Below are positions 1-19,998 of a stretch of 64,000 nt of DNA, piece by piece. The stretch's first letter is position 1. Each line of letters starts with the position of its first letter. This DNA comes from Thiorhodovibrio winogradskyi (GTDB lineage Bacteria > Pseudomonadota > Gammaproteobacteria > Chromatiales > Chromatiaceae): positions 4,351,531 through 4,415,530 of the forward strand of contig NZ_CP121472.1 of NCBI RefSeq assembly GCF_036208045.1, read 5' to 3'. The position numbers were made by a program, and so were the translations under genes. The notes beneath the pieces are model-generated. The model searched no databases. It saw nothing but the letters and a program-made list of their open reading frames with translations, and was not told the origin of the DNA.

Positions 1-882
1 GGGTGCTCCTGCGGTGACTAGCCATGCTGCGCAGGTATGTCTTAGATCGTGGAAGTGGAAGTTATCGATCCCGGCATCACTGCATGCTTTTGCAAAGGCA
101 CCTCGGATGTCGTTTGCTCGACGTCCATCTGCAAACGCAAAAACCCAAGGTGCGTCAGGGCAGTGCTCGCTACGAAAGCTAGCTCGTCTGAGGATGGCCT
201 TATACGCAAGGCTGCTCAAGGGGATGCTGCGTCGTTTACCTGCCTTGGTATGTCGCGCTTCAAGATGAATAAGCCGCTCGCGAAGATCGACGCGCGACCA
301 CTCAAGTCCAAGTAGTTCTTCTTTTCGGCACCCTGTATAGAGAGCGGTTGTAAGAAGATCAGCTAGAAAAGGTACTCTTCGCGCGTGGCTGGCCGCTTTG
401 ATGAGTGCTTCTGCTTCGCTCTGTTGCAACCAGCGAATTCTGCCTTCAGGTTCGGACAGTTTGCGACCGGCGGTTGGGTTTGGCAATTGCCAATCCAGTT
501 CACGGTTACAGTAACCTATGGCCGAGGACAAAAGTGCCATTTCCCGGTTGATAGTCGAATTACTGATACCCTGAGCACGGCGAGCGTGGGCATACTGGGC
601 AAGATGCTGGTTGTTCAAGGAATGCATTAGGGTTCCACGGAAATGTTCGCGAAGAGCCTTTGCTCGATGTCGATCAGTTGCGGCGCTGCGTTTGCACTGA
701 GCTGTTTCGGTCAGGTATGTCAGGATCACCTCGTCGAAGGTTCTCTCGTGTGGAGCATCCCAGTGCTTTTCTTGGTGAACGGCAAGCTTCCATTTCACGA
801 AGATTGCCTCGGGTGCTGATGGACAGACGCGCTGCGGTGATGGTGGTCGGTTGCTTGGACATGAGGGTTCACTCCGATGCAC
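1..882 (-). CDS. Tyrosine recombinase (phage integrase), runs off left edge
   Basis: This is a phage-type tyrosine integrase read on the minus strand; its C-terminus with the catalytic tyrosine lies beyond position 1. The readable frame contains an N-terminal core-binding segment (around 560-720), then the catalytic domain with an ALYTGCRKEELLGLEW box (first Arg of the catalytic set) and HDLRHTCAAWLVTAG near position 20-50 (the H-x-L-R-H box). The start is uncertain: the frame is open back to a GTG at 882, the first in-frame ATG at 627 is too late, and an ATG at 862 in another frame begins a plausible N-terminus, so a small frameshift near 800 is possible. Together with the tRNA-Leu fragment at 15.9 kb it marks this stretch as an integrated island. 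Confidence 0.85.
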   Translation of the reverse strand, partial: MHRSEPSCPSNRPPSPQRVCPSAPEAIFVKWKLAVHQEKHWDAPHERTFDEVILTYLTETAQCKRSAATDRHRAKALREHFRGTLMHSLNNQHLAQYAHARRAQGISNSTINREMALLSSAIGYCNRELDWQLPNPTAGRKLSEPEGRIRWLQQSEAEALIKAASHARRVPFLADLLTTALYTGCRKEELLGLEWSRVDLRERLIHLEARHTKAGKRRSIPLSSLAYKAILRRASFRSEHCPDAPWVFAFADGRRANDIRGAFAKACSDAGIDNFHFHDLRHTCAAWLVTAGAP

Positions 883-5047: not shown

Positions 5048-7585
5048 TCAGTTACCTATAACGCAGCACGTTTCAAACACCGCATCCAACTGCGGATTGG
5101 ATGTCACTAGCAGGATCTTGTTGATGATACTGGTATCGTTCAGTTCAAGCCGGTGAAAATGCCCGCTGCTGTCTTTGCGCAGGAGTTCAATCCTTCCAAA
5201 CAAGTGCCCGTGCTCTTCGGCAAAGCGTGCGAGGCCGATGGCTTTCTCGAAGTTATCGCCTCGGCTGGGGTCGTGGGGTTCGAGGATGTCGAAGAGGTAG
5301 CCGGATACGGTGCCGTCGGCGGCGGTCTGCTGCCGCACGATGACGAGGTCGGGGAACATGGGGCGAATCTCGCCGCCGGTTTGGTAGGGGATTTCCAGTG
5401 ACCAGGACTTGCGGTCGAGGTTGCGCAGCCAGGCCACGACCTCGGGCTTGGTGAGTTCGAGTTCGAGGAGGTCGTGTTCCCAGGTGCCGAGGTCGGCGCG
5501 AAACTGGCCGTCTTCCTCCAGGTACAGGTGTTTGTCGTAAGCGGGTGCCTTGTCGCTGCGACGAAAGGGAATAGACTCGTCTAAACACCAAGGTTCTGGT
5601 TTGGGTTTTGCCGTTGCTCTGCGCAGCTTGTTGTAACGCTGTCGTTCTCGTTCAGGCAGCTTGCCGATGGCCTGCTTGTGCTGATCATAGAGGGCATTGA
5701 AGGCGCTTTCGGCCTTGGCTTCCAGATCGGCGATGCACTGCGGTTGTCGGCTCAGCACAATGGCTTCGACTTTCACCTCCAGGGCATCGCGCTCGGCGTG
5801 GGCTTGCCAATAGGCTTGATGCAGGGCATTGCTGAACGTGCGGCCGGCCTCGGCGAATTGGCGTTCAATGTCGGCCTCGGATGCATCCAACTCGTAGTCA
5901 CGCACGGGTGTGGTGAGGCCGCTGCCGAGCATCTCCGGGTTGTCTGGATCAGCCTCGGCGGTGATGGTGGTGACCTTGACCCGGGTGATGGCCGCTTCGG
6001 CCTTGGCGTAGCGGCCGTCGGCTTTGAGCTGGTCGATCTCCTGCTCCATCCAAGCGATCATTTGCTGCTTGGCCTGCTTCCAAGCCGATGGCTCGATGTC
6101 GTCGATGTTCAAGCGCCGGGCTAAATCGACATAGCGGCGGATCGGACTTTGGGCGCGCACCGCATTGACGCGATAGGTCATGAGCGCTGCGTTGGCGGCG
6201 AAGATGGCTTCGGTCCCTGGCCGACGGGTCAGGATCACCAGCTCGCGGCTGGACCCTGTCTCTGCCGGGGGTGTTTCCTCGACGTTATTCAGATCCGCGA
6301 TCACGGCCTTGACGGCCTCTGCATCGAAGTGCGGCAGAAACAAATGCACGTCGTTCAGCGCGGCATCGCGCTCGATGCGCCGGGCCAACGGGGTGCGTAC
6401 CATGCGCCCGAGCAGTTGGGCGATGTAAGTGTGATCCTCGGCGCGCCGGAAGGACATCATCACCTCGGCGCGCGGGCAGTCCCAGCCGGTCGATAGGCTG
6501 GTCTTGAAGAACACCACGCCGATGTCTTTGTTCTCGTCGATGCGCGAGGCATCCACCCGGCGGATATTGTGATCACCAATCGCCAGGTCGCCGCAGTCGT
6601 GCAGCGCATGCACGGCCTCGCCTTCGCGCAGGCGCACACCGGTGGCGCGCTCGATGGCGGCGATGGCGGCGGCGAGATCGGTGCGCGAGGTCTGGGTGTC
6701 GGTGCCGTTTTCAATCTGCACGACCAGCACTGGCCAGACGCGCTGCGGTTCGTTCTCAGCCGTGCAGTAGGCATCCCAGGCGTGGCGCATCTGCTGCCAG
6801 GTGCGGGCGGCCTCCTCAAGCAAGGTCATTTCCGCCTCACCCGCCGCGTCTGGGTGGTGAATCGGCACGCGATCCTTCAGTAAGCCCGAAGCCCGTACCT
6901 CAGCGACTGGCACCGTGACTTTGTGCTGGGTGTGGGGCGCCTGTTCCAGCAGATCGACGAAGCGCTTGGGGGTGGCCGAGATGCCGATGACCAGCGGCAT
7001 CGGGATCAGGCCGCTGGCGGGATGGCCGAGCAGAAAACGCTGCACCAAGGTGCGGGCTTCCTTGAGATTGCGCGCGCTGGTCATGCCGCGATGGGCTTCG
7101 TCGATAACCAGGTAGAAGCGCTCCGGGGCCAAGCGGGCGGTGTTGGTGAAGGTGCTCCAAATCGGGTAAGCCCGCCCATCGCCCTGGCGGGTCAGGCGCT
7201 TGTCGTTGCCGAGCTTTTGAATGTTGATGAAGTGAATCACCCCCGGCTCCAAGCGCTCGCGGTCGAAATCGGCGTCGATGGTCAGCAGGCGCTGCTCGCC
7301 GATGCGATCCGACACCTGATTGATGCGCCGATGCGTCTGCTCGTTCAGCTCGGGCATGTCGGACAGCCAGAGGATGGAGGCATCGGGCTGGGCCTCCAGG
7401 CCCAGGGCGCCGAAGAGAATGTCCTCGAACAGCGCGGCCATCATCACCGTCTTGCCGCTGCCGGTCGGGGCGGAGAAAGAAATCGCCTGCGGGTAGTCCG
7501 GGCTGGCCAGTTCGCGTGCCTGTTTGACGCGGATGCGCAACTGCTCGAGCGCGGCCTCCTGGAAATCGAACAGCTCGAATTTCAT
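5048..7585 (-). CDS. Type III restriction enzyme, Res subunit (DEAD/DEAH helicase-nuclease)
   Basis: Res is the ATP-dependent translocase and nuclease subunit of a type III restriction system and works in complex with Mod. The 845-residue protein shows the Walker A motif APTGSGKT (residues 39-46), the Walker B motif LVIDEAH followed by RGMTSARN, a TAT-like box GISATPKRF, and motif VI QLLGRMVRTP. The C-terminal 250 residues contain an acidic FPDLVIV segment, probably part of the PD-(D/E)XK nuclease. Its ATG overlaps the stop of the methyltransferase gene by 4 bases, indicating coupling. It looks intact although its partner mod is interrupted. Confidence 0.93.
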   Translation of the reverse strand: MKFELFDFQEAALEQLRIRVKQARELASPDYPQAISFSAPTGSGKTVMMAALFEDILFGALGLEAQPDASILWLSDMPELNEQTHRRINQVSDRIGEQRLLTIDADFDRERLEPGVIHFINIQKLGNDKRLTRQGDGRAYPIWSTFTNTARLAPERFYLVIDEAHRGMTSARNLKEARTLVQRFLLGHPASGLIPMPLVIGISATPKRFVDLLEQAPHTQHKVTVPVAEVRASGLLKDRVPIHHPDAAGEAEMTLLEEAARTWQQMRHAWDAYCTAENEPQRVWPVLVVQIENGTDTQTSRTDLAAAIAAIERATGVRLREGEAVHALHDCGDLAIGDHNIRRVDASRIDENKDIGVVFFKTSLSTGWDCPRAEVMMSFRRAEDHTYIAQLLGRMVRTPLARRIERDAALNDVHLFLPHFDAEAVKAVIADLNNVEETPPAETGSSRELVILTRRPGTEAIFAANAALMTYRVNAVRAQSPIRRYVDLARRLNIDDIEPSAWKQAKQQMIAWMEQEIDQLKADGRYAKAEAAITRVKVTTITAEADPDNPEMLGSGLTTPVRDYELDASEADIERQFAEAGRTFSNALHQAYWQAHAERDALEVKVEAIVLSRQPQCIADLEAKAESAFNALYDQHKQAIGKLPERERQRYNKLRRATAKPKPEPWCLDESIPFRRSDKAPAYDKHLYLEEDGQFRADLGTWEHDLLELELTKPEVVAWLRNLDRKSWSLEIPYQTGGEIRPMFPDLVIVRQQTAADGTVSGYLFDILEPHDPSRGDNFEKAIGLARFAEEHGHLFGRIELLRKDSSGHFHRLELNDTSIINKILLVTSNPQLDAVFETCCVIGN

Positions 7586-9231
7586 GCGCCGGCCTCCCGT
7601 CGCGCCGCCTGCGCGGGGTCGATATTGATCAAAAAGTTCTCCAGATAATCCCGATAGAGCTGGACGGTTTCCAGTTCGGGATTGGTGCGCGCTAGGCGGG
7701 CGCGTGCCTCGGCGGATAATTCCTGGAACGCCTCCTCGGCATCGGTGACGATGAACAGCAGGCGCAACTGGGTGCGCCCAGCGAGGGCCTGCAACAGCGG
7801 CTGCATGGCACCTTCATCGAGCAGCACCGCGAAAGGATTGGCCGCCGGTGCGAAGAAGGCGGGCTCGGGCTGATCGGTCGGCAACGCGGGGCGCGGGCCG
7901 ATGGCTCCGGCTTTCAGCCAGAGCAAGGGCAGGATTTCGTGAAAGGCGCGCTTGAGTGCGACGCGATGTTGGTCGAGAAAATCCAGGCGGAAATAGGCCA
8001 GATTGGCGGCGAAGCCGTCGGCGAGCGGGCGCTTTTCTTCCTCGGTCAAGCGCAAGGGGCCGAGCAGGTTGTGCACCTCGGCTTTGATCTGGTCGAAGAC
8101 CTTCTTGGTGGTGGCCACGACATAGAGGTCCGTGATCTGCTCTTGTCCCGCCAGCGCATCGAGCCAGTCAGCGGCCGCCGTCTCATCGAACAGCACACTG
8201 GTGGTATGTTCCTCCGAGACGATGAAGGCGTCGTCCTCGGTCGCGAGCTTTTGCGGCAGGCCAGGCAGGAGCGCGACCAGTTGCTTTTTGCGCGCAGCGG
8301 TGGTGAGCGCGGCGGGGTCGACAAAGCCAATATGGACGATGCGGCGCGGTCGCTCGCGTTCCGCCGTGCCGCCGGTCAGATAGTCACCGTGCAGTGGGGT
8401 GCCATCGTCGCGCTGCCCGCGAATGGTGAACTTGCTGCGCGGCCAGGTGACCGAGCGGCAGATGCCCTCGGCTTCCCAGGCATCATCCCCTGGTTGCAGT
8501 CCGCGAGCGCGCATGGCTTCGGTCTCGTCACCAGAGACTTCATTGTTGGTGACCAGGATACAGCGGCGCTGACCGCCGTCCGTGGCGTTGAGAAGATTGA
8601 CGGCGTTTAGAGTGGTGCCGCTGCCGGCGAAGAAGTCGAGGACTAAGGCCCCCTTTCGATCACCGATAGCAGCTTCGATGCAATCCTTTGTCGAATAAAC
8701 CGATTTTGGGAAAGAAAACTTGCTCCGCGAGCCAAGTGCGGATTCAAGAAGTTTAGAACCACCACTGCCCCCGGCAGTATGTCGACCTCTAAACCATATT
8801 GTACGCGCAACATACCGCTTAGGTGTCCGTCGTTCTAATCGCGCTTCTTTCCTGTCCCCATAACCGAGAACGATGGTTTCGCCTTCGTCAATAGCATTAA
8901 CTGTGCCTTCTAGCAAATATCTTATGGTCCAAGTACCGCGCGAATTATCTCGTGAAGAAACATAAGCGAAACCTCTGCTTGCTAGATACTTCAGCCTATT
9001 TCGATCTACTCGCCATATACCCAATCTCCCATCATTTCGTACAGGCCAAGCTAGTAAGTTACCGTTTTTCTCAAGCTCTCGATTGCGCTCCTCCTGGACA
9101 TCTAATGTCTCGTCGTCATGAAAGACCATTGGTAGTCCAACATCGATGATTTGGGTTCCGGATGAGTCAATAACAACTGGATAACATAAATTGGTACGAT
9201 GCTTCCGGTACCATGATGTACCGCCTCTCAT
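7582..9231 (-). pseudogene. Type III DNA methyltransferase (Mod), C-terminal part after an in-frame stop
   Basis: This open part of mod (549 codons from the ATG at 9231) carries the SAM-binding motif LVLDFFAGSGTTLNAVN. In beta-class N-methyltransferases that motif comes after the catalytic DPPY box, which lies in the upstream piece. The two pieces are in the same frame: reading through 9240-9229 gives RW-stop-ALMRGG, so a single TAA is the only interruption. The MRGGTSWYRK... start is internal to the conserved family region, so it is unlikely to be a true start. Without readthrough the enzyme would be split into two chains. Confidence 0.8.
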
Positions 9232-9237
9232 TAAAGC

Positions 9238-10107
9238 TTACCAACGTATATGAGACGAGCGTTTTTCCGACTGCGGCAGCAACATATCATCTGCCACGAA
9301 GCAAGGCTCGGTATCCGAAAGAAAGCAGAAAATAGCGTATTCCTCAACGCGTGATAATCCTTCTCCCGAAGACCCGCTAGGGTTGATGCAAATAGATACC
9401 AGTTGACGATTGCTATCAGGAAATATATCAGCCAAAAGCATACCGAGATGGTGAAGCTCATTTCGATCAATTGTGGCGATCAATACACCTCGTCGTTGAT
9501 TCAAGAGTATTCTTGCCAACCGCAACCGCTTCTCCATAAAGGACAACCACTTGGAATGTCGCCAGGCGTCATTCCCATCAACATAATCGTTGTTGTACTT
9601 CCAATCCCGCGCTCCGGTGTTATAGGGCGGATCGATATAGATGCAGTCCACCTGCCCGGCATAGAGATAGCCCAGCAATTGCAATGCATGGTAATTGTCG
9701 GCCTCGATCAGACAATGCCAGGGCGCATCGGCCGGACCGTTCTGGACTTGATCCATGGGAGTCAGCGCGGGGAAAATCGGCTCGCCGAACTGCCGCACCA
9801 CGATCAGATCCGCCAGCGGCCAGTCAAAGCGCGCGCCGGCATCGGCGGTTCCCTCCGGTCGCACACACTCAGCCACCCCGTCGCGCACCCGGCGCACCCG
9901 CCAGCGGTCAGTCAGCGACGCGCCTTTCTTTGCGACTAGATCACCGCGCCTGGGCGTGACCTTGGGCAGCGGGACCAACTCCGGTAAATGACGGTCGAAC
10001 ACCAGGCCAAACTGGCGCGTCTTGCGCACCTCCGCCCACTCGCGCTTGAGCTGCTCACGCACGCGCGGCTCGGAGACTTGGGCAATCAGATCATCAAGCG
10101 AGGCCAA
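9238..10107 (-). pseudogene. Type III DNA methyltransferase (Mod), N-terminal part with catalytic DPPY
   Basis: This 289-codon frame begins MASLDDLIAQVSEPRVREQL and holds the catalytic motif CIYIDPPYNTG (DPPY at residues 159-162), where the target adenine is methylated. It stops at a TAA (9240-9238) six bases before the ATG of the downstream part, in the same frame. The next residues match the continuous family sequence, so a CAA or GAA changed to TAA is the simplest explanation. A gap of 88 bases separates it from the upstream RelE-type toxin gene. Confidence 0.82.
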
Positions 10108-10195
10108 TGGTGACTCCTTGGCGAGGGGCTATTCAGGGAAAGGGTGCAAGGGACGAATGGCGGCCGATCACGCCAGCCTGATCCGTGACGGATCG

Positions 10196-10471
10196 CTAAT
10201 GCTCGCCAGTACGCGGCTGCGCCAGTATCTGATCGTACCGGCGATGCGGGCCGATCCAAAACCAGACGAGACCCTCAGCGCGTTCCTTGGCCAGGGCACG
10301 ATAACCTCGGCTGACCCGCGCTGACCAGAAAGGTCCGACGCGCTTGAGCCGCAGAGACGGGTGTGTCGGATCCTCGCGCAACAGCGCGAACTGCTTATCC
10401 GCGACCTTGCGCACCGCTGCTGGAAGCTGATGGTACCGCGCCCAGAAGTCCGACGTGGCAAAGTGTTTCAA
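10196..10471 (-). CDS. RelE/ParE-family toxin
   Basis: This is a 91-residue, basic protein of the RelE/ParE fold. It has the characteristic path: an N-terminal helix (FWARYHQLPAAVRKVADKQF), LLREDPTHPSLRLKRVG, and a C-terminal sheet WSARVSRGYRALA...VWFWIGPHRRYDQIL. RelE members cut mRNA at the ribosome and ParE members poison gyrase; the sequence does not decide between them. Its ATG overlaps the stop of the antitoxin gene (ATGA). Confidence 0.82.
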   Translation of the reverse strand: MKHFATSDFWARYHQLPAAVRKVADKQFALLREDPTHPSLRLKRVGPFWSARVSRGYRALAKERAEGLVWFWIGPHRRYDQILAQPRTGEH

Positions 10472-10665
10472 AGTGGTGTGCAGCGACCAGCTTCAAAGTC
10501 CGCATCCGCGCGCCGCCCAGCCTCGTCAAGGCGGCCCGCGCGCGCGTCGTCTTCGATCTGGTCATCCCACTGCGCATCGAGGTAGTCCTCGAACCAGTCA
10601 GCGAAGTAGCGCAGTTTATCTGGTGGCAGTTGGGTGATCTGTTGTTGGAGTTGGGTGATCGTCAT
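10468..10665 (-). CDS. Antitoxin partner of the RelE/ParE toxin
   Basis: This is a 65-residue acidic protein, MTITQLQQQITQLPPDKLRY..., starting at the ATG at 10665 rather than at 10737, because the upstream residues overlap the helicase gene and are not antitoxin-like. The N-terminal LPxxKLRYFADWFEDYL segment resembles short antitoxins of the DUF2281 kind. It precedes the toxin with a 4-base overlap, and its first 50 bases overlap the 3' end of the helicase gene. Confidence 0.72.
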   Translation of the reverse strand: MTITQLQQQITQLPPDKLRYFADWFEDYLDAQWDDQIEDDARAGRLDEAGRRADADFEAGRCTPL

Positions 10666-12589
10666 GATGTTGTGATCTGCTGTATGGCTGATGACGCGGC
10701 GGGCCAAGCTCCTGGAAGTCTGGCCAGCTCCGTCCAAATTCCCGATATTCTCGAGCCGCGCAGACGACTGTCAACCAGCTGCCTTCGCGGTGGCGTTTTA
10801 AGCGTGTCAGGCCGGTGTAGACCAAGGCCGGCGTGCGAGCGGTTACCCTCGCGCCGATCAGTAGTACGATGGCGCGCGCCTCCCAGCCCTTGAAGCTATG
10901 GATTGTAGTCGCTTTGTTTGTGGCATGACCCATAAAGAAGAGTTGCTTCTTTTTCCTGGCATCACGGCTATTCCCGCTAAAGGTATGCGAACAGTTAATG
11001 TTTGTTGATTTTAATGTATTAACGAAAGCCTCTCCGTCCTGTTGCGAGTCGCTCAGAAAGACGATATCGGTTATCGCAAGCAGTTGAGGATCGGCCTGAG
11101 GTGATAAACGCAGAAATTCTTCGTGGCATCTTTGTATGGCATCTGCTTCTGGAGTTTGTACCCAGCGCAGATGACATGGGTAGAGATCCAGTTCAGGGTT
11201 CTTCAGCCTGTCTGTTGTTGTGGGTAAATCAATATCTTCTGCTTTGAGATGTGAGGTGGCGAATCGGCCGGCCATGTCGATTAAGTTTTGTGGTAGCCGA
11301 TAGCAGACATCCAACCGGACCCAAGGGCCGGTGAAGCCAGCACCCTGCATCGCTTGTTCGGTCCAAGTGGATGCTGTTTGATAGACATCCTGGGTGACAT
11401 CAGCAGCGAGCAACATCTCAGCATCTGGCTTGCGGACTTTGCGCAGGACAGCCCACCACTCTGGAAGGAAGTCCTGCCCCTCGTCGACCAAGATCGCATC
11501 ATACTTCTGCACCAAGTGGCCCGGATGGCGGTCAATACATTCGGCGACCAATTCTGGCAGCAACTTGTTCAACACATCCTCAGTACTGCATGGGTCTGGG
11601 CTTTCCTCATCCATGGCCCTTTTCCATAAACTGCGGTACCGGCCCTGATGGCCTGTCTTCTCGCAGACGATCTTGCACCAGTAGTGAAAGTTGTACCAAG
11701 TCACATTGGAAACCGCATTCCCTTTGTATTCTGGACAACGAATCACAAGTTCACGGAGGTAGTTGATCAAGGTGAGATTGAAGGTGATGACAAGTACGCT
11801 TTTGTTCTGTGCAACAAGGTCGGAGACACGAGCGGCGAGTACCAAGGACTTACCCGACCCAGCCGGGCCTTTTATGCGTCTAAAGCCACTCGATGTGCGG
11901 GTTGTTGCAAGACGTATCTGATTGCTATCGAGTTCCAACCGGTCACGCGTTTCATCTGAATGATCCGGTTCAACCAGCCAACTGCGCAGATCCTGAGCGG
12001 TTTCCGGACTCATATACATTGAACGACTGCGGTATGCTTCCGGGAAAACAAACTTAACGTCGTTCGCGGCGAGTGGTTCTTTCCCTGAGATCGGGTAGTA
12101 GGGCATGGCTGCTTCGGCCCGCATGCCATACCTATCAAGCGTGGGACCGAGTATCTGTTGCACGGCACCATGGCTAGAAAAGGGAAATATCGCGCCTGCA
12201 CTAATCACGGATATTGATTTGTTCCCAGCAAGCCGTGGGCAGTAGAGGTTGGCAAGCTCGGTCTTGATGAGATGTAACTCGTGGACGGGATTGCGGCGCT
12301 TTGATGTTTGGACGGTATTGGGGTTACCGGTCAAATAGGTATCACCTGTTTCCAAGGCATCCGGGTTACTGTCTAGATCGAAGTCACGGATTTCAAAAAT
12401 AGCGATCCCGGCTTGCGGGCGCAGTAGAACGATGTCGGGCCGAAGTCCGTTGAGGTGGGGTTTGATGTAAAACTCCCACTCAGGGGATAAATGCCGGTTG
12501 AAGAAATCAATGACCAGGCGTTCGCCAGCTGACAATGGTGGGTTCAGTTTGGATAGCTCGACTAACGGCGGTGAAGTGACCCGAATCAT
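10616..12589 (-). CDS. NERD-domain UvrD/Rep-like helicase of candidate defence operon
   Basis: This 657-residue protein joins an N-terminal NERD nuclease-related domain (residues about 18-130) to a superfamily 1 helicase. In NERD the acidic residues D52 (RPDIVLL) and E66 are present, but the usual E-x-K is E-I-R, so nuclease activity is uncertain. Helicase motifs are Walker A GPAGSGKS (241-248), Walker B ILVDEGQDF, motif V TIHSFKGWEAR and motif VI VYTGLTRLKR. It is the last gene of a four-gene operon, 18 bases after the zinc-finger coiled-coil gene. The final residues run over the antitoxin gene and are low-complexity. Confidence 0.88.
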   Translation of the reverse strand: MIRVTSPPLVELSKLNPPLSAGERLVIDFFNRHLSPEWEFYIKPHLNGLRPDIVLLRPQAGIAIFEIRDFDLDSNPDALETGDTYLTGNPNTVQTSKRRNPVHELHLIKTELANLYCPRLAGNKSISVISAGAIFPFSSHGAVQQILGPTLDRYGMRAEAAMPYYPISGKEPLAANDVKFVFPEAYRSRSMYMSPETAQDLRSWLVEPDHSDETRDRLELDSNQIRLATTRTSSGFRRIKGPAGSGKSLVLAARVSDLVAQNKSVLVITFNLTLINYLRELVIRCPEYKGNAVSNVTWYNFHYWCKIVCEKTGHQGRYRSLWKRAMDEESPDPCSTEDVLNKLLPELVAECIDRHPGHLVQKYDAILVDEGQDFLPEWWAVLRKVRKPDAEMLLAADVTQDVYQTASTWTEQAMQGAGFTGPWVRLDVCYRLPQNLIDMAGRFATSHLKAEDIDLPTTTDRLKNPELDLYPCHLRWVQTPEADAIQRCHEEFLRLSPQADPQLLAITDIVFLSDSQQDGEAFVNTLKSTNINCSHTFSGNSRDARKKKQLFFMGHATNKATTIHSFKGWEARAIVLLIGARVTARTPALVYTGLTRLKRHREGSWLTVVCAAREYREFGRSWPDFQELGPPRHQPYSRSQHHDDHPTPTTDHPTATR

Positions 12590-12607
12590 GTTGCTGTGTC
12601 TTTACCG

Positions 12608-13771
12608 TCAGTCGATGATGCTCAACATACTTTGGTGCTGTTGCGCATTGACGACGGCTGCAAGCTGGGCGGGTGACTTTAGCTTGACGAGAAAGCCGCA
12701 ACCTTGGTTATTCGGTAGCCAACGCGGACAGCCGAGAAAGTAGCGGTCCAGTATGTTATCGGTTGCATCGCGTTTGGAACGCAAGCGCAAGCGTTCACCA
12801 TGAATCGGACAGCGGTAGCCGTCGATACCCATGCTGCTTTTGTTCTGCTGGCTACGGATGCTCTCAACCACTTGCTGCAAGCGAGCAGCCCTTTGCGGGC
12901 TGCGAACATGACCGTCTAACTCGGTTGGGGTCAATTCAAACTCTTTCCGGTTGCGATTGGCAAATAAGCTCAGGTCTTCAGGACTGAGCCTCGCGGTTTG
13001 GGTGCAAGCACGATGGTTATGTGCATCGATGTGGTACCAGCCGGAGCAACCCCAGAAAACCTCGTTGGCTTGGACAGTCGCTTGATCGCGACGCCACTGA
13101 AGGACCATCGGCCTCCCACACACGGGGCAGGCTTTGTTGTAGGTGCTCTGGCCGACGTGGTACTGAAGAATGTGGGTGGTGCTGTCGGCGATGTTGATGA
13201 CTTGGTAGTCTTTCTCCTCGCGGACGATGGTCTCAGCGTTGTTGAACTTGTCGAGAGTACCAAGCTCTTGGGAAAGCCGAGCGCGCTCGGCTGTGAGTTG
13301 ACGCGAGCGTTGTCGGTCGGCTTCGGTTAGTCCGCCTCGGTCGAAGTAGCGCTTGCGTAGGGCAAGGATCTCTTCGTTGATCTGCTGGAGCTGACGTTCC
13401 GTCTGTTCCTGCTGTTGCGAGGCAGGTTCCGGGCGTTCAGATAGGTCGAGTTCGCGGAGTTTCTGGTTGATCTGATCTCGCCGTTTGCGAAGCTCAGCAT
13501 GACGATGATGTTCGGCTGGTAGGAGACCGCGCTCCTCATGTTTGCGCTTTAGAGAGATTAGCTCATCATTGATTCCCGCGCGTTCGTCGAGGAGCTTCTC
13601 TTTAACCGTCCGGTCCCGGTGCTCTCTTGCCGATTTCTCGATCTTGTCTACAAGGATTTTGGCTGCACTGACGACCTCGCGAGCGACCTCTTGCGTGGCC
13701 TTGGCGACTGCCGTCCCAACTTGGACGAAGGCGTTGAAGATGCCGCCGACGAGGTCGAAAAAGAAGCCCAT
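12608..13771 (-). CDS. Coiled-coil protein with two topoisomerase-type zinc fingers
   Basis: This is a 387-residue protein. Residues 1-35 form an amphipathic, glycine- and alanine-rich helix (MGFFFDLVGGIFNAFVQVG) that may contact membrane. Residues 40-175 are a long charged coiled coil (LRKRRDQINQKLREL, QQINEEILALRKRY). Two C4-like fingers follow: CPVCGRPM...WGCSGW...C and CPIHGERL...FLGCPRW...GC, resembling the zinc fingers of topoisomerase I tails and McrA-like proteins. It abuts the nuclease gene (stop to start without gap) and precedes the NERD helicase. The function is unknown; DNA or RNA binding is inferred from the fingers. Confidence 0.78.
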   Translation of the reverse strand: MGFFFDLVGGIFNAFVQVGTAVAKATQEVAREVVSAAKILVDKIEKSAREHRDRTVKEKLLDERAGINDELISLKRKHEERGLLPAEHHRHAELRKRRDQINQKLRELDLSERPEPASQQQEQTERQLQQINEEILALRKRYFDRGGLTEADRQRSRQLTAERARLSQELGTLDKFNNAETIVREEKDYQVINIADSTTHILQYHVGQSTYNKACPVCGRPMVLQWRRDQATVQANEVFWGCSGWYHIDAHNHRACTQTARLSPEDLSLFANRNRKEFELTPTELDGHVRSPQRAARLQQVVESIRSQQNKSSMGIDGYRCPIHGERLRLRSKRDATDNILDRYFLGCPRWLPNNQGCGFLVKLKSPAQLAAVVNAQQHQSMLSIID

Positions 13772-14749
13772 TCAGGCTATCCCAAGGCCAAGTTGCTGCC
13801 GGTAGAAGGCGGCGCGTCTGGCCATGCGCCGATTGTTCTTGCGCACGAAGGCGACGAGGTCGTCGATGCTTTGCAGCTCGTCGAAAAACAGCCCGATGGC
13901 AAATGCGCCGACGATGCCTAAGGCGATGCTGTCAGTGAAGACCTTGATCAGAGCACCAACCGCCAATGCCGTACCAGCGCGCGCGGCGCGAGCGGCGGCG
14001 ACCTCGGCGGCATCGGCGATGGTTTGTTTGGCCATGATGACCTGATAGCCCTGGGTGGCCGCGATCAGCAACAAGGGAAGCAGTGGGTTGAATTGGTGCC
14101 AGAAGTTGTCCAGGAGGCTGTCGCCAGTGACTTCCAGCCCATCTCGCGTCAGTTGTTCGAGATCGGCATCGGAGATCCCGGTATCCAGCACCATTTGATC
14201 GGGGCCGAAATGGCTGGCGACCTCCGAGGTGGCGAGGATTTGAATGTCTGGGTAAGTCTCCAAAGCGTCGAGCACATAGGATGCGCTGTCGGTGGCCTTG
14301 GCTTGGAGGTACTGACTGATCTGCCCGTCTGGAGCCAGGATTTGCAGATCCCAGCCGGGTTGGCTGAGGTGTTCTGCCACGACGGCTTGGTAGCCTGGTG
14401 GTAGCAGCAGGTCTCCCACCTGTTCGCCCTTGTTTAAGCTGTCGGCGAGCAGGTACTCGAAGTATTTGCCTTTGGCGCTGGAGAGGATCCCCATGAGTTG
14501 GGCATCGCTCAGACTGCTGAGCTGAGAGGCGTCGAAATGGGGGTTGGTATCCTGGATGGCCCGCAAGACGAGCGGATCGGCGGACGCGATGTCGTTAAGG
14601 CTCAGTGCGGCGGCAGCGGCGGCGAGGTCGAGCAATCGGCTGGAACGATACTGCGCGTAGCGTTCCCTGAGCCGCTTGACGGCGTCGATGTTGGTATCGA
14701 TAAGGGGCTCGTAGCGTGCCAGCAGGGGGTCGAGGTAGTCGGCGTTCAT
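13772..14749 (-). CDS. Mrr-like nuclease domain with C-terminal membrane segments
   Basis: The 325-residue protein has a stretch GKYFEYLLAD...GYQAVVAE...GWDLQIL...QYLQAKAT that fits the Mrr/PD-(D/E)XK core: E98, D134 and the Q149-A-K151 triplet, where Mrr-type enzymes use Q/E-x-K. Residues 222-240 and 259-290 are hydrophobic, suggesting two or three membrane helices, and the tail is basic (RKNNRRMARRAAFYR). A membrane-anchored DNA nuclease is therefore my inference. Its start overlaps the preceding 71-residue gene by 4 bases and its stop abuts the zinc-finger gene. Confidence 0.75.
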   Translation of the reverse strand: MNADYLDPLLARYEPLIDTNIDAVKRLRERYAQYRSSRLLDLAAAAAALSLNDIASADPLVLRAIQDTNPHFDASQLSSLSDAQLMGILSSAKGKYFEYLLADSLNKGEQVGDLLLPPGYQAVVAEHLSQPGWDLQILAPDGQISQYLQAKATDSASYVLDALETYPDIQILATSEVASHFGPDQMVLDTGISDADLEQLTRDGLEVTGDSLLDNFWHQFNPLLPLLLIAATQGYQVIMAKQTIADAAEVAAARAARAGTALAVGALIKVFTDSIALGIVGAFAIGLFFDELQSIDDLVAFVRKNNRRMARRAAFYRQQLGLGIA

Positions 14750-14961
14750 CGCAGCTTTAGACCAAGATCGGGGGCAGGTTCAGCGGCTCCAGACATGGCA
14801 GCGACCAGGGAGGCGAGTTGCCCTTCAAGTGTGGCGATGCGGTCTTCGTGCGAGCGGATGGTGTTGTGCAGATGGGTGATGTAGGCGTCCATGCCGGTTA
14901 GAACCTCTTCAATGCGCTGGTAATTTTCGCGCAGTTCGGATTTGAGTTCGTCACTAGGCAT
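14746..14961 (-). CDS. Small coiled-coil protein, first gene of candidate defence operon
   Basis: The 71-residue protein MPSDELKSELRENYQRIEEV... is one heptad-patterned helix (IRSHEDRIATLEGQLASLVAAM) with a short flexible tail. It overlaps the nuclease gene by 4 bases (ATGA), so the two are translationally coupled. It is probably an assembly or regulatory partner of the downstream proteins. No family is recognised. Confidence 0.65.
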   Translation of the reverse strand: MPSDELKSELRENYQRIEEVLTGMDAYITHLHNTIRSHEDRIATLEGQLASLVAAMSGAAEPAPDLGLKLR

Positions 14962-15264
14962 GGGTCGGGTTGCAGATGTTGTGGGAAAACCGTGGTTTTG
15001 TGGTTTTTTGCCGGGGGCCTAGCCAGCGATTTTGCGCGGGCCTCAGCAGCTGCGGTCTTTGGTCTGCGTAGTCGAGCAACAGTGACGTCGCCGTGCCCTC
15101 ACATCAGTCAAGTGTAGACAAGGAAGTGCGTGGTTGCTAGTAGACGGAGGTGGAATTTTTTTCCGAGCAACCGCTTGTCGGCTCTGTATGTTATTCTTTT
15201 TAAAGAGGTTCAGAAGGTTCGTGGGCCGTGTGCCACATCTGGAACAAGAGATAACTTAGCGGAC
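14962..15264. other. Divergent intergenic region
   Basis: This gap separates the minus-strand operon starting at 14961 from the plus-strand terminase gene at 15265 and should contain both promoters. It has no convincing coding frame. I could not fix -35/-10 boxes with confidence. Confidence 0.4.
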
Positions 15265-15606
15265 ATGACAGCACGCAGGGAAAGATTTATCAGTGAGTAC
15301 CTCGTCGATCAGAACGGCGCGGCAGCGGCGCGAAGAGCTGGGTATGCAGCCAGATCAGCCAGGCAGACAGCAGCCGAGTTACTTGCAAAACCTGACATCG
15401 CGGTGGCAATTCAGCGGAAGCGCGAGCAAGTAGCTCAACGACTTGCCGTAACACATGACACCATTGCCGCGGGGTTCATCGAAGCCTTCGAGACGGCACG
15501 GGAAACAAGCGACGCGCGTGCGATGATCGCAGCCTGTCACAGGTTAGCGGAGTTCTGCGGGCTTTACGCGGAATCGTCTTCGGCAACAACCGCCGCTTCA
15601 TCTTAG
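15265..15606 (+). CDS. Phage terminase small subunit-like protein
   Basis: The 113-residue protein (start ATG 15265, MTARRERFISEYLVDQNG) has the Terminase_2 signature: FISEYLVDQNGAAAARRAGYAARSARQTAAELLAKPDI. That is an N-terminal DNA-binding helical domain, followed by a helical region DTIAAGFIEAFETARE. In phages it recognises the packaging site. No large terminase or other phage gene accompanies it, so it is an orphan from a prophage or a cargo gene of the island. A longer frame from 15130 lacks family sequence. Confidence 0.75.
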   Translation: MTARRERFISEYLVDQNGAAAARRAGYAARSARQTAAELLAKPDIAVAIQRKREQVAQRLAVTHDTIAAGFIEAFETARETSDARAMIAACHRLAEFCGLYAESSSATTAASS

Positions 15607-15747
15607 AAGCGGTCCGGGTTTCAGTCTTGGTTAAATTTGACAGCCCCCCTTCGCGCCCGGCATGGTAGAACGCACAGCAAGCGATTTGCAGTCCTAGCGA
15701 CGGTGTCGACTCGCGCTAGCTACGGCGAGCCTTTACGGCGTGACTGG

Positions 15748-15771
15748 AACGTGACGCAAGCGCGTCACGTT
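15748..15771. repeat. Perfect 10-bp inverted repeat next to att fragment
   Basis: AACGTGACGC, a 4-base loop AAGC, and GCGTCACGTT form a perfect hairpin. It lies 84 bases before the tRNA-Leu fragment and is followed by repeated GAGTCCATT/GAGTCAC words at 15775-15798. It could be an integrase or excisionase arm site or a terminator; no T-run follows it. Confidence 0.5.
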
Positions 15772-15854
15772 GGTGTCCATTGAGTCCATTTGAGTCACTT
15801 TTGCGCGGGGACGGAAGCGACAAGTCATTGAATCAAAAGGACTTAGGTTTTCTT

Positions 15855-15913
15855 GCTGGATTTAGGTTCCAGTGGAGCAATCCGTGGGGGTTCGAGTCCC
15901 CCCTCGCGCACCA
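15855..15913 (+). other. tRNA-Leu(TAG) 3' fragment, island attachment site
   Basis: The sequence holds a full anticodon arm (CTGGA-TTTAGGT-TCCAG, anticodon TAG), a variable arm, a T arm (GGGGG-TTCGAGT-CCCCC) and the 3' acceptor strand CTCGCGC-A-CCA. No D arm or properly spaced 5' acceptor strand precedes it. A GCGCGGG at about 15805 could pair with the acceptor, but some 43 bases intervene where about 20 are needed. A 3' tRNA copy at an island edge is the hallmark of tyrosine-integrase insertion, and the integrase lies at the other end of this segment. Confidence 0.75.
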
Positions 15914-16241
15914 TCTGAATCAATTACTTGCAAGCTTGTCACACAGCTTCTTGCTGAAGGGTTCCTGAGCGATTTGACCGCGCCAGTGATTCGCAACGCG
16001 ATGGAGTCAGTGCGCACCATTGATGTGGAGCACTGGGTCGAGAGGCATCTCGGCGATTCCATGCTCAAGCGCCGCCGACGCGCCTTGGTGCCGACAAAAA
16101 ACTGCATGAGCGGTTTGGGGCTAATTCTTGGGAGACTGAACTACCTACGCAGAGTGACGGCGTTTGTTGAGCCAATCTTGCTGCCGGCAGCGGCAATTTT
16201 TTCTTGACCTGAATCGGATCACCAGGTCACCGCTGCGATAC
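15914..16241. other. Degenerate sequence after the att site
   Basis: A plus-strand frame (LLAEGFLSDLTAPVIRNAMES...) is open through here but has no start after the tRNA fragment and no family I know. It may be a gene remnant. No other feature is visible. Confidence 0.3.
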
Positions 16242-16255
16242 TTGATGCGAGTCAA
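16242..16255. promoter_or_regulatory. FNR/DNR-type box upstream of CBS gene
   Basis: TTGATGCGAGTCAA matches the FNR-family palindrome TTGAT-N4-ATCAA with one deviation in the right half. It lies about 85 bases before the CBS gene start and is almost identical to boxes at 18611 and 19491. The Crp/Fnr regulator encoded at 18764 is the likely binder. Confidence 0.65.
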
Positions 16256-16339
16256 GGCACTCCCGGCGCCAGCGCGCCAGGCTGCTCGCTCAGTCAGCCG
16301 TCTGCGACCATTCGCGCCACCCTGCCGAGGAGCCCGCTC

Positions 16340-16984
16340 ATGCCCCCATCATTGCCCCTGGATCCGCCCGCCCGACACACTCCCTTTGGCGCCGATGGCA
16401 ACGGACTGCCCGAGCTAACGTTGTCCGAGGAGGACATTCAGGCCGCCATGCGCCATCTGTCGGGCTATGTCGATATTTCCAACAGCGACTTTCAGGCCAT
16501 CTACCATCTCGCCCATCGCCAGGCGATTGAGCGGCTCTTCGCCGGGGTGCGTGCCGGGCGTCTGATGCGCACCGGCATCGCGCCGCTCGCCCCCAACCAA
16601 TCCCTGGCCGAGGCAGCCAGGGCGCTGGCGGATCAGGGACTCAAGGGCTTGCCGGTGGTGGATACCGAGGGCAAGGTGATCGGCATGCTGACCGAGACCG
16701 ATTGTCTGCGCGAGCTCGGCGCCGACATCCTGCCCGAACTGCTGGCGCGGCTGATCGAGGCAGCCGGCCCATTCACCCATGAGTGCTATGCAACCCGCGT
16801 CGGCGCCGCGATGACCGCGCCTGCCGTGACGGTCGATGAGTCCGCCTGCTTCGGCACCATGATCGGCGCTTTTCATCGCCACCCCGGGCGCGGCATGCCG
16901 GTGGTGGATGCCCAGGGCAAGCTGCTTGGCCTGCTGTTGCGCAAGGACTTTCTGGCGGCGTTTCGCATGGAGGAGCTATTGTAG
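16340..16984 (+). CDS. CBS-domain pair protein (HPP-associated)
   Basis: The 214-residue protein has a short N-terminal helical region followed by two CBS motifs (about 75-130 and 150-212), each ending in the typical GLPVVDTEGKVIGMLTETD and GMPVVDAQGKLLGLLLRKD strands. CBS pairs bind adenosyl ligands and regulate partner proteins. HPP-family membrane proteins often carry or accompany CBS pairs, and an HPP protein lies 0.9 kb away, so the two probably act together. An FNR/DNR box lies upstream. Cytoplasmic location is inferred. Confidence 0.9.
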   Translation: MPPSLPLDPPARHTPFGADGNGLPELTLSEEDIQAAMRHLSGYVDISNSDFQAIYHLAHRQAIERLFAGVRAGRLMRTGIAPLAPNQSLAEAARALADQGLKGLPVVDTEGKVIGMLTETDCLRELGADILPELLARLIEAAGPFTHECYATRVGAAMTAPAVTVDESACFGTMIGAFHRHPGRGMPVVDAQGKLLGLLLRKDFLAAFRMEELL

Positions 16985-17051
16985 CCTGCGCTGACAGCGA
17001 AACCGCCGCCTGGAGAAACCCCAGCCTGGTTCGGATCAACCGCGGCTCGGA

Positions 17052-17509
17052 TCAACCGGTGTGTAACCGACCCCAGACCTCGCTGATCGCGTGCCAGAGT
17101 GTCGACGGGATGCGCTCCTCAGTTTTGGCTTGTTGCAGGGTCTCACTCATGGCTTGGGCGATGGCGTCAAGAATGGGTTCTGGTCGATCCACGGCGCAGA
17201 CCTTGCGACCGAAGGCCGCGAGTTCCGTTCTGGTCGGATAAGCGCGGGTCTGGTGACGGCCACGCCAGAGCTTGAGCGCCAGGGTATTGTCTTCCAGTTC
17301 AGGGCCGCCGTCGTAGCGGGTATCTGCACGGAAACAGATCGCCATCCTGCCAGGTGAGTCGCGCACTGGCCGGCATCAGCAAGGCGACACTGGGTTGATC
17401 CGGCTCGGGGGACAGGTAGCAAAACTCGTAGCGCGGTGCGCAACAACTGACCCGCCTGCCGCGCTGCCCCAATGTCTACTTCCTGTTTCCGAATCAGCTC
17501 AGGCAGCAT
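17052..17509 (-). pseudogene. hipA toxin remnant with frameshift and internal deletion
   Basis: HipA is a serine/threonine kinase toxin. Three pieces of it can be read on the minus strand. An N-terminal piece begins at ATG 17509 (LIRKQEVDIGAARQAGQLLR). After a frame change comes RYEFCYLSPEPDQPSVALLM ... ARLTWQDGDLFP. A C-terminal piece, ADTRYDGGPELEDNTLALKL...LAAFGR, follows from about 17330. The whole kinase core between LFP and the last piece is missing, so no active toxin can be made. Confidence 0.7.
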
Positions 17510-17789
17510 CAGCGGCGCCCTCCTCGTCGCCCTCCTCGTCGCCCTCCTCGTCGCCTAGCCTGAAACGGGCCGCCACCTCCTCCATGGTCGGGAGTCCGGC
17601 CGGTTCCAAGCGCACCGCCAGTCCCAGCGCGCGAGTGACCGCCAACAGGGAAGAGACGGTCACATCCTCGACACGCTCAAGCCGATAAATCACCTCGCGC
17701 ACCTTGTTGGCGCGCTGGGCGAGCGCATTTTTGGTCAGGCCATGGGCCTCGCGATGCGTGCGCAGGTGGCGAGCGAGTTCATCCGGGAA
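17499..17789 (-). pseudogene. hipB-like XRE antitoxin, 5' end lost
   Basis: The frame reads FPDELARHLRTHREAHGLTK-NALAQRANKVREVIYRLE..., a helix-turn-helix of the XRE/HipB type, followed by a DEEG-repeat acidic tail. A TAG stands directly before the first codon and no start codon is present, so the 5' end has been lost or mutated. It overlaps the hipA remnant by 11 bases in the usual hipBA order. Confidence 0.65.
17519..17554. repeat. 12-bp tandem repeat (three units)
   Basis: CCCTCCTCGTCG is repeated three times in the hipB tail and encodes DEEG-type units on the minus strand. Such in-frame repeats vary by slippage. Confidence 0.7.
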
Positions 17790-17908
17790 CTAAATTTTGT
17801 CAGTCGTGGTTGACATTTCTGGCCCAAAAACGCCATCGTGCAAGCTATGGCTGACACACTGACAGCCGACCTGTCGCGGCTGTCCCTTCACCGCCGATCA
17901 GGCCGTTT

Positions 17909-18550
17909 TCATATCCAAGTCTCGGGATAGCGCCGCCCCGCTGGAAGATTGTTGACTACCAGCCCCACCAGCAGCAGGATCAGCGGCCCCAGGGTGGCGG
18001 GGATCAGGCAGTAGAGAAAGCCTAGGATGTGGATCTGCTCGGAGCCGATCACCGCGATCAGCGCGGTCGCGCCGCCGGGCGGATGGAGGGTGCGGGTGGC
18101 GTGCATTAGCGCGATGGCGGTGGCCACCGCCAGGGCCGCCGCCAGCCAGGGCCAGGGGGCGAGCAGTTGCCAGGCCGCCACGCCAACCACGGCCGAGACC
18201 AGGTGACCGCCGATCAGATTGCGCGGCTGCGCCAGCGGGCTGCGCGGCGCGCCATAGACCAGCACCGCCGAGGCGCCCAGGGAGCCGATCAGCAGGATGA
18301 GATCCTCGCCGGCGAACCAGGCTTGGTGCAGCCAGGCCACAGCACCGATGCCGAGCACACTGCCGATCCAGGACCAGAGGATTTCTCTCCAACTCACGCG
18401 CGGTGGCGAGCCACGGGTAGACCCGCGCATCTTGCCAAAATATTGGCCCAATCCACGCCGCAGGCGCTGTCCGGTCGCGACCGGCGAGTCGGCGTTTCGG
18501 GGCGCGGCGCTGCGGGCATCCTTCAGACTCTTGGGTCGATAGGCGTGCAT
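17909..18550 (-). CDS. HPP-family integral membrane protein
   Basis: The 213-residue protein has a basic N-terminal stretch, then about four hydrophobic helices from residue 55 onward. It carries the family signature HPPGGATALIAVIG and GSLGASAVLVYGAP, and ends LVVNNLPAGRRYPE. HPP proteins have been linked to nitrite transport and nitrosative metabolism. It is transcribed divergently from the DNR-type regulator, with an FNR/DNR box in the shared 213-base region. The inner membrane is the expected location. Confidence 0.88.
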   Translation of the reverse strand: MHAYRPKSLKDARSAAPRNADSPVATGQRLRRGLGQYFGKMRGSTRGSPPRVSWREILWSWIGSVLGIGAVAWLHQAWFAGEDLILLIGSLGASAVLVYGAPRSPLAQPRNLIGGHLVSAVVGVAAWQLLAPWPWLAAALAVATAIALMHATRTLHPPGGATALIAVIGSEQIHILGFLYCLIPATLGPLILLLVGLVVNNLPAGRRYPETWI

Positions 18551-18610
18551 GGCGAGGTCTCTGGAGGTTGAGCTGGCGGCTTACCCTGAGCCAGCCGCGC
18601 CCTGATCTCC

Positions 18611-18624
18611 TTGATGCAAGTCAA
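18611..18624. promoter_or_regulatory. FNR/DNR-type box between HPP gene and regulator
   Basis: TTGATGCAAGTCAA lies between the divergent HPP and Crp/Fnr genes, 61 bases upstream of the HPP start and 140 bases from the regulator start. It fits the FNR-family consensus and could serve both promoters, including autoregulation. Confidence 0.7.
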
Positions 18625-18763
18625 GCCGCCAGCTTGCACCAAGTGCTACCTGGTCTGCCGATGATCGGGCGATGTGCCACAATGACCACGGCTCGGAAGC
18701 CGCCAAGCCCCCGGCTAGAACCACCCTATATTGTTGAATCCACGAAGTGTTTCGGAGTTCCTC

Positions 18764-19450
18764 ATGCCGCCCGATGACACCCTGCGCCAAGCGCCCTTGC
18801 TCGCCCAACTGAGCGACCCGCAACTCCATCGCTTGCGTGCCAAGGCGCGTCTGTTGCGTCTGGACGCCGGTCAGTGGCTGTTCGCCCAGGATGATCCGGC
18901 CGAGCATTTTTACTTTGTCCACCGGGGACAAATCCGGCTGTTTCGGTTCTCCTCCGAGGGCGAGGAGAAGATCATCGAACTGATCGGCGCCAGCCAGACC
19001 TTCGCCGAAGCGCTGATGTTCATGGGCACCGGGCGTTATCCGGTGTGCGCCGCCGCTCTGGTTGACTCCGAGCTGCTGGCGATTGACGCCGACGACTTCG
19101 CCGCCATGCTGCGCGAATCGCCCGGGACCTGTTTTGCCCTGCTCGGCAGCCTCAGTCAGCGGCTGCACGGGCTGATTGCCGAAATCGACAACCTGGCGCT
19201 GCACTCGGGTAGTGTGCGCTTCGCGCGCTGGTTGCTCGCCGAATTGCCAGCGGGTGCCGACGAACTGACCCTGGCCTGGCCCAAGTCAACCCTGGCCTCG
19301 CGCCTGACGATCAAGCCGGAAACCTGGTCGCGCATCACCCGGCGTCTGGTCGAGCAACACATCATTGCCGTGAGCGGCCAGCATATCCGCGTGCTTGATC
19401 GAGACGCCTTGCACCGACTTGGCGATCCCGATGATCTGACCCTGGCTTGA
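18764..19450 (+). CDS. Crp/Fnr-family regulator, DNR type
   Basis: The 228-residue protein has an N-terminal cyclic-nucleotide-binding-like fold (residues 10-125; FAQDDPAEHFYFVHRGQIRL) and a C-terminal winged helix (150-220; STLASRLTIKPETWSRITRR as recognition region). It lacks the N-terminal cysteine cluster of FNR, which points to DNR-like nitric oxide/heme sensing. I start it at ATG 18764, nine bases after a GGAG box, rather than at 18731. FNR/DNR boxes flank it on both sides. Confidence 0.9.
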   Translation: MPPDDTLRQAPLLAQLSDPQLHRLRAKARLLRLDAGQWLFAQDDPAEHFYFVHRGQIRLFRFSSEGEEKIIELIGASQTFAEALMFMGTGRYPVCAAALVDSELLAIDADDFAAMLRESPGTCFALLGSLSQRLHGLIAEIDNLALHSGSVRFARWLLAELPAGADELTLAWPKSTLASRLTIKPETWSRITRRLVEQHIIAVSGQHIRVLDRDALHRLGDPDDLTLA

Positions 19451-19490
19451 CCAAGGTCCGAGGCCGCGAGCCGGCGCCTGGAGCCTGCCC

Positions 19491-19504
19491 TTGACTTGGG
19501 TCAA
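19491..19504. promoter_or_regulatory. FNR/DNR-type box upstream of hemerythrin-like remnant
   Basis: TTGACTTGGGTCAA is a perfect palindrome of the FNR-family type. It lies about 90 bases before the truncated hemerythrin-like gene, which therefore probably belonged to the same regulon. Confidence 0.65.
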
Positions 19505-19590
19505 GACCCGCACCTCGCTGTGACTGAGACACTGCCGCCGACGAAACCCGAGCGCTTGCCGTTTTCTTCACCCGGTAGATGCACATCCGC

Positions 19591-19728
19591 ATGTCCCAGT
19601 CCTTCCTCACCACACTGACCGCCGACCATCGCCGCTGTGATCAATTGCTCGCCCAGGTCGAGCGCGCCGAGCAGACGGCGGACTGGCCAGAGGCCGCCAG
19701 GCTTCACGCTCGCCGCCGAACAGATTGA
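19591..19728 (+). pseudogene. Hemerythrin-like (HHE) protein, truncated after 45 codons
   Basis: The frame MSQSFLTTLTADHRRCDQLL...TADWPEAARLH matches the first helix of hemerythrin HHE proteins (ADHRRCDxLL, with the iron-ligand His). It then runs into foreign sequence and stops. Full HHE proteins are about 150-200 residues. The sequence after about 19698 belongs to an integrase remnant. Confidence 0.65.
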
Positions 19729-19933
19729 TGAGGATAACCCCGCCGGTGCCGAGCATCTGCGCGCGGCATCCCCTCACTGGCTGCGTCATACCGGGATCAC
19801 GCATTGGATTGATGCCGGCGTGAGTCTCAAGGATGCGCAGTCGCTCTCACGTCACCGTTCCTTACAGGATTTGGGCACCTATGCGCATAGCGATCGGGAT
19901 CGGCTCTACGAGCAGGTGGCGAGGTTGGGCTAG
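19698..19933 (+). pseudogene. Tyrosine recombinase C-terminal remnant
   Basis: The frame ending at 19933 reads ASPHWLRHTGITHWIDAGVS...SRHRSLQDLGTYAHSDRDRL, which contains the R-H box, the second H and a YAH tail typical of integrase C-termini. The rest of the gene is absent. It is fused to the hemerythrin fragment, so it marks an old insertion or deletion. Confidence 0.7.
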
Positions 19934-19998
19934 CTGCGCTTGCGCGGTGCGTACGGGATAATGTACGCTGCTGCGGCAACCGAAGGGGAACGAGAAAA

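Follow-up and report, generated by a model that had tools for sequence, protein, structure and literature searches.

Four adjacent genes and the relatives of three of them

A stretch of 64,000 nucleotides of the Thiorhodovibrio winogradskyi genome (contig NZ_CP121472.1, positions 4,351,531 to 4,415,530; hereafter, the window) was found to carry four tightly packed open reading frames (ORFs), named here A, B, C and D, all on the minus strand (Table 1). A and B overlap by 4 bases, B and C abut, and 18 bases separate C from D, exactly as an earlier reading made from the sequence alone (the sequence-only reading) had it. That reading put the four genes forward as one operon with an inferred role in defence. 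The inspection of relatives in other genomes indicates that A, B and C form a conserved, widespread and apparently unnamed three-gene nuclease cassette. Gene D is probably no more than a neighbour, a separate gene downstream of A-B-C that shares their island and possibly their transcript.

Table 1. Features of the window, with positions counted from its first nucleotide
Feature	Position	Strand	Basis or remark
Gene A, 71-amino acid coiled-coil protein, family motif EEVLxGMD	14746..14961	-	ORF call and family alignments
Gene B, 325-amino acid predicted PD-(D/E)XK nuclease, C-terminal hydrophobic/helical tail	13772..14749	-	Alignment, PADLOC core match, AlphaFold
Gene C, 387-amino acid protein, long coiled coil and two zinc ribbons	12608..13771	-	Alignment, AlphaFold
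Gene D, 657-amino acid NERD-UvrD helicase (PADLOC C3a187)	10616..12589	-	PADLOC profile
Right copy of 76-bp tRNA-Leu 3'-end repeat, attachment-site-like island boundary	15855..15930	+	Sequence match
Tyrosine integrase, partial	1..432	-	Match continues left of the window (G000:C1:4351459-4351962)
Single-stranded DNA-binding protein (SSB)	927-1427		Between repeats
PIN-domain gene	2480-2953		Between repeats
Type III restriction-modification (R-M) system	5048-10107		Between repeats
ParE-like gene	10196-10471		Small gene 10468-10737 upstream
TerS-like gene (Terminase_2, E=3e-16)	15190-15606	+	Between repeats

In a preliminary survey of 274 genomes from the class, 10 had a relative of B, that of T. 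winogradskyi included; two others carried A-B-C. The B proteins of these last two and of the window were aligned, and two patterns taken from B (KGKYFEY and Q[PA]GWD[LI][QK]I) were used to scan one genome per species in 84,980 species (GTDB genomes). The scan matched 143 stretches, 33 of which encode a relative of B (these and other loci are referred to below by numbers preceded by L). A match to a profile for A was present upstream of B at 29 of the 33 loci; since the window and 22 of these loci supplied the sequences for this profile, 22 of the 29 matches are expected by construction, and the seven beyond them are L034, L035, L039, L042, L047, L049 and L053 (weak). C was found downstream of B at 17 of the 33 loci, and a relative of D at none. 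As all loci were retrieved through B patterns, the rates for C and D are conditional on B. The contig of L026 stops 234 bases past B, too early for C to be seen. L030 and L032 duplicate the contigs of L015 and L016. The spread of the C-bearing form over phyla may be overstated, given that L031 (an Anaerolineales metagenome-assembled genome, MAG) and L040 (a Saccharibacteria MAG) are short contigs that fall inside betaproteobacterial clades and are possible binning errors. B had no match at E 1e-5 in 50,697 phage records and was confirmed in none of 34 candidate stretches of a viral contig scan; among plasmids, C had no match and B a single weak one. Relatives of B lacking an A profile match upstream were seen at L054-L057; they form one clade, and some bear long N-terminal extensions.

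Gene D was confirmed as a NERD-UvrD helicase: residues 12-626, nearly its full length, match the PADLOC family C3a187 ('NERD+UvrD') with E=2.6e-124 and 414 bits, and its Walker A motif (GPAGSGKS) is present. The E-x-K motif of NERD domains is catalytic. D lacks an intact one, the corresponding position reading E66-I-R, whereas three of three aligned relatives have E-V-K. C3a187 is a one-protein model, with no A, B or C content, and profiles for A, B and C had no match around any of 20 loci with C3a187-type helicases, the closest relatives of D (L105, L106 and L107; 42-50% identity) included. These 20 loci were the best C3a187 matches fetched plus a paralogue from the same genome; only L105-L107 are close to D, L074 and L104 hold less than 1 kb upstream of the helicase, and the contig of L105 ends some 140 bases after the D relative. 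The closest relatives of D adjoin genes of other kinds, as judged by eye. A, B and C are conserved together elsewhere, but not with D, and a four-gene system was rejected on these co-occurrence counts (0/33 and 0/20). The paralogue of the same genome (L107 6819-8471; G000:C1:1363064-1364452) is 50% identical to D, matches it only from residue 158 onward, adjoins a transposase-like ORF (by eye) and has no A, B or C nearby.

Predicted properties of the A, B and C proteins

The sequence-only reading had pointed to E98, D134 and Q149-A-K151 as catalytic-type residues of B. They are present; the E, D, Q and K were common to the three proteins of the first alignment and are kept in all 34 aligned B members. 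Each B locus holds at least one search pattern, so the invariance of E98 and D134 derives in part from selection, while that of Q149 and K151 does not. In 15 further B relatives that had not been picked by motif, E was kept in 14, D in 15, Q in 14 and K in 15. The core modelled by AlphaFold consists of a helix (82-106), three strands (121-124, 135-138 and 144-151), a second helix (156-165) and a last strand (170-173), with a predicted local distance difference test (pLDDT) score of 90-98 by block; over residues 61-200 block scores were 86-98. An alpha-beta-beta-beta-alpha-beta order defines the PD-(D/E)XK core. The predicted topology of B is of this kind, with a QxK-type motif, and the 325-residue protein is likely to have a nuclease fold, as had been anticipated. 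Its conserved residues also follow the superfamily pattern of a glutamate in the first helix (E98) and an acidic residue (D134) plus (E/Q)xK (Q149-x-K151) at the core strands. Fold searches returned restriction enzymes, the PA-N endonuclease and YaeQ, and a sequence search of solved structures with the B profile gave nothing relevant. B matched no Pfam or NCBIfam family at E values up to 1, and Pfam searches over the 34 members gave one marginal, unrelated match only. The earlier label of an Mrr-type nuclease hence holds as far as a candidate PD-(D/E)XK enzyme of the QxK type goes; membership of the Mrr family in the strict sense was rejected, there being no profile support for it in Pfam or NCBIfam.

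The C protein was modelled with confidence by AlphaFold (mean pLDDT 86.4): long helices, which we interpret as coiled coils, precede two zinc ribbons. The eight presumed zinc ligands (C215, C218, C242 and C256; C321, H324, C348 and C358) are invariant in the 18 C proteins, which bears out the two zinc fingers on a coiled coil that had been noted before. Pfam matches of the ribbons were weak; because those in six of the 18 proteins were to a recombinase zinc-ribbon family, C may bind nucleic acid. The C of the window is unusually long (387 residues; the other 17 have 310-329), and the additional 60-75 or so residues lie in the coil. Fold searches with C gave mainly generic coiled-coil matches, and neither C nor its relatives matched any PADLOC family beyond weak coil ones.

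The A protein is a short coil in which G23 is the sole residue invariant across 23 aligned rows; the motif EEVLxGMD is found in the C-bearing form. Its Pfam and NCBIfam matches were weak coil matches, with no antitoxin family among them. The A of the window has no transmembrane helix (19-residue Kyte-Doolittle maximum 1.19). At loci with A and B but without C, A ended in a C-terminal hydrophobic helix in 11 of 11 cases (maximum 1.74-3.07), and at loci with C it did so in none of 17 (0.44-0.87). On the B tree, the C-bearing rows, together with L026, make up one supported clade (100/99); the change in the anchor of A is therefore one event. The absence of this helix where C is present suggests, short of proof, that the mode of membrane attachment has changed. 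The membrane helices earlier ascribed to B were borne out only in part: they correspond to a glycine-rich, moderately hydrophobic stretch (19-residue Kyte-Doolittle maximum 1.95) in long helices modelled mostly with low confidence. The C-terminal half of B exceeded 1.6 in 23 of the 34 members.

Defence genes around the cassette and its likely role

Defence genes were found near 17 of the 33 B loci, a raw count with no matched random baseline, in agreement with the defence-island setting that had been proposed. Eight of the 17 were scanned directly with PADLOC (L027, L029, L035, L036, L037, L038, L041 and L055) and nine (L039, L040, L042, L043, L051, L052, L053, L056 and L057) were assigned through single-linkage clusters with a scanned member; the call for L053 rests on a 197-amino acid ORF. 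Clusters account for 16 loci, and L035 makes 17. The scans detected PglX (1565 bits), PglZ (994) and BrxL (998) at L036; PsyrT (982.5) and PsyrA (461.5) at L037; ZorA2, ZorB2, ZorE2 and type I R-M subunits at L027; type I R-M subunits at L029; a II-G R-M enzyme at L041; MkoA at L035; and a methyltransferase at L038. At five of the 33 loci (L036, which was scanned, and L037, L039, L042 and L043, by cluster) the cassette lies inside a bacteriophage exclusion (BREX) operon, where A-B-C has PglX on one side (with PsyrTA as well in three) and PglZ-BrxL on the other. The spacing from C to PglZ ranges from -4 to 55 bases in four of these; L042 has an intervening ORF. At L027 and L029 the cassette lies between hsdS and hsdR, with other genes separating C from hsdR in L029. 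On the B tree, the BREX copies and L040 form one clade, and the associations with type I R-M, Zorya and MkoA fall on other branches. A defence role for the cassette is thus likely by association. Other genes near the cassette include one for an Hsp70-like protein directly upstream in the BREX locus L043 (7801-9336) and, upstream at L035 (6604-8424), those for a DUF2357 (McrC-type domain) protein and for MkoA- and PDC-M26A-like proteins.

No named system with the A-B-C gene set was found in PADLOC v2 or in a literature search that covered mostly papers available without subscription, in line with the sequence-only reading. Its description of the composition as unrecognised stands for the A-B-C combination and for C; it does not for D, which matches the PADLOC candidate C3a187, or for the core of B, which matches PDC-M72B. 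This last match is confined to residues 79-205 (E=8.2e-18); several short B relatives match better, up to 102 bits. The PDC-M72 models span 168-193 positions, whereas B has additional N- and C-terminal parts, and A-type proteins gave only weak coil matches to PADLOC families. Among the A, C and upstream partner proteins scanned with PADLOC, no PDC-M72 component other than B appeared. The same literature search found no paper on the names PDC-M72 or C3a187. A short parallel form was observed at L126 (5695-8167) and L127 (6350-8726), made up of a PDC-M09A-like glycine-rich protein, a short PDC-M72B-type nuclease and a C-like zinc-ribbon protein. In L124 (4970-8873) a short-B form and then A-B-C stand in tandem, separated by an SSB-like ORF (by eye).

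Among described systems, PD-(D/E)XK nucleases are reported as the most prevalent accessory effectors of BREX loci, for which an auxiliary or back-up function has been proposed (PMC12839542). Like them, B can be encoded inside a BREX operon; the trio of coiled-coil, nuclease and zinc-ribbon proteins, however, is absent from the main-text parts of that report that were examined. The report is consistent with the role proposed here for the cassette, without naming it. Since only five of the 33 loci lie inside BREX, and none of the 10 window ORFs scanned with PADLOC is a BREX protein, the cassette is at most optional BREX cargo, not a BREX component. CoCoNuT/McrBC systems, as portrayed in the parts of PMC11090510 consulted, likewise bring PD-(D/E)xK nucleases together with zinc ribbons and coiled coils, and occur in superoperons that include type I R-M and BREX. 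Their core, however, is an McrB-type GTPase plus an McrC protein with DUF2357; neither domain was found by Pfam and NCBIfam scans of A, B, C and the other window ORFs scanned.

On balance, we lean towards reading A-B-C as a defence-associated, membrane-associated accessory nuclease module, with D separate from it. As to membrane placement and mechanism, we infer the following. B would be the nuclease that cuts DNA and A its small coiled-coil partner, while C would contact nucleic acid through its zinc ribbons. The complex would sit at the inner membrane, fixed in C-less forms by the tail anchor of A, and in C-bearing forms possibly by the hydrophobic tail of B or the N-terminus of C. C, or the companion system, would mark foreign or damaged DNA and B would cut it, perhaps killing the host cell too. 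The cassette would then supply an accessory or back-up effector to an adjacent modification-based system, which in this island is the type III R-M. No defence neighbour was found at 16 of the 33 loci, where only part of the genes was scanned. The Kyte-Doolittle maximum of C (0.86-1.84) exceeds 1.6 in four of 18 members, always near the N-terminus, so that the N-terminus of C is clearly hydrophobic in those four only. More tentatively, and with rather more doubt than confidence, in part because of this limited hydrophobicity of C, an unnamed membrane-tethered nuclease immunity module can be envisaged. It would form a portable second layer that plugs into unrelated modification-based defence operons (BREX and type I, II-G and III R-M) and accompanies Zorya, its anchor having changed through loss of the tail anchor of A when C joined. 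If the cassette works as proposed, a portable nuclease layer would have been taken up independently by several unrelated defence systems, a PADLOC candidate known here solely as a profile would gain a function, and the case would bear on whether some defence systems position a nuclease at the membrane to meet phage DNA on its entry. The correction of the flagged four genes to three also defines the gene set to clone.

Three other explanations were considered. A and B might be a toxin-antitoxin-like abortive module, in which a self-cutting or membrane-damaging B is kept in check by A until the cell is infected. A small upstream gene overlapping its partner is a common antitoxin-toxin layout, and A, small and directly upstream of B with a 4-base overlap, conforms to it; the hydrophobic tail of B and two other toxin-like genes in the island (ParE-like and PIN) point the same way. 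However, a tail anchor, as present on A in the C-less forms, is unusual for an antitoxin, A gave weak coil matches and none to an antitoxin family, and C is left unexplained. We regard this option as unlikely. It is quite improbable that the cassette serves host DNA maintenance or a mobile element (repair, recombination or upkeep of the element) and merely hitch-hikes in islands. The weak recombinase zinc-ribbon matches of C, the SSB and TerS-like genes of the same island, the SSB-like ORF between the two L124 cassettes and the loci without a defence neighbour would fit such a function, but it agrees poorly with insertions that recur across lineages within BREX and type I R-M operons and with the absence of B from phage records and confirmed viral contigs. 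Least probable is a single A-B-C-D system in which helicase D feeds DNA to nuclease B: the shared strand and the 18-base gap make one transcript likely, and helicase-nuclease pairs are known in defence (Hachiman), but the co-occurrence counts of zero in both directions, and the arginine in the NERD motif of D where three of three aligned relatives keep lysine, argue against it.

The island in T. winogradskyi

The cassette belongs to an element roughly 16 kb long, which is flanked by a 76-bp tRNA-Leu repeat and has an integrase gene at one end. The intact tRNA-Leu (L117 1769-1853) ends immediately before the left edge of the window; a 76-bp copy of its 3' end recurs inside the window with 99% identity, and the tyrosine integrase adjoins the left copy. 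The integrase/tRNA island of the sequence-only reading is therefore upheld by the repeat and the integrase, although the window contains the integrase only in part and stops just short of the tRNA; ARAGORN detected no tRNA within it. An Rfam scan of positions 10000-20000 gave no match. A search for an empty integration site with the right flank as query returned only short partial matches, in two genomes of the same genus. The type III R-M system, a neighbour named earlier, is present, as is a ParE-like gene with a small gene upstream (Table 1). The mod gene of the type III system consists of two ORFs in the same frame (7582-9231 and 9238-10107) split by one stop codon (9238-9240), so this system may not function, or may be expressed as two separate pieces. 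An orphan TerS-like gene stands beside the cassette in the window and at five of the 33 B loci, a number unchanged by a profile built from these six genes: L025 (13310-), L052 (11324-11785), L053 (11549-11908), L055 (11178-11612) and L056 (19985-20449).

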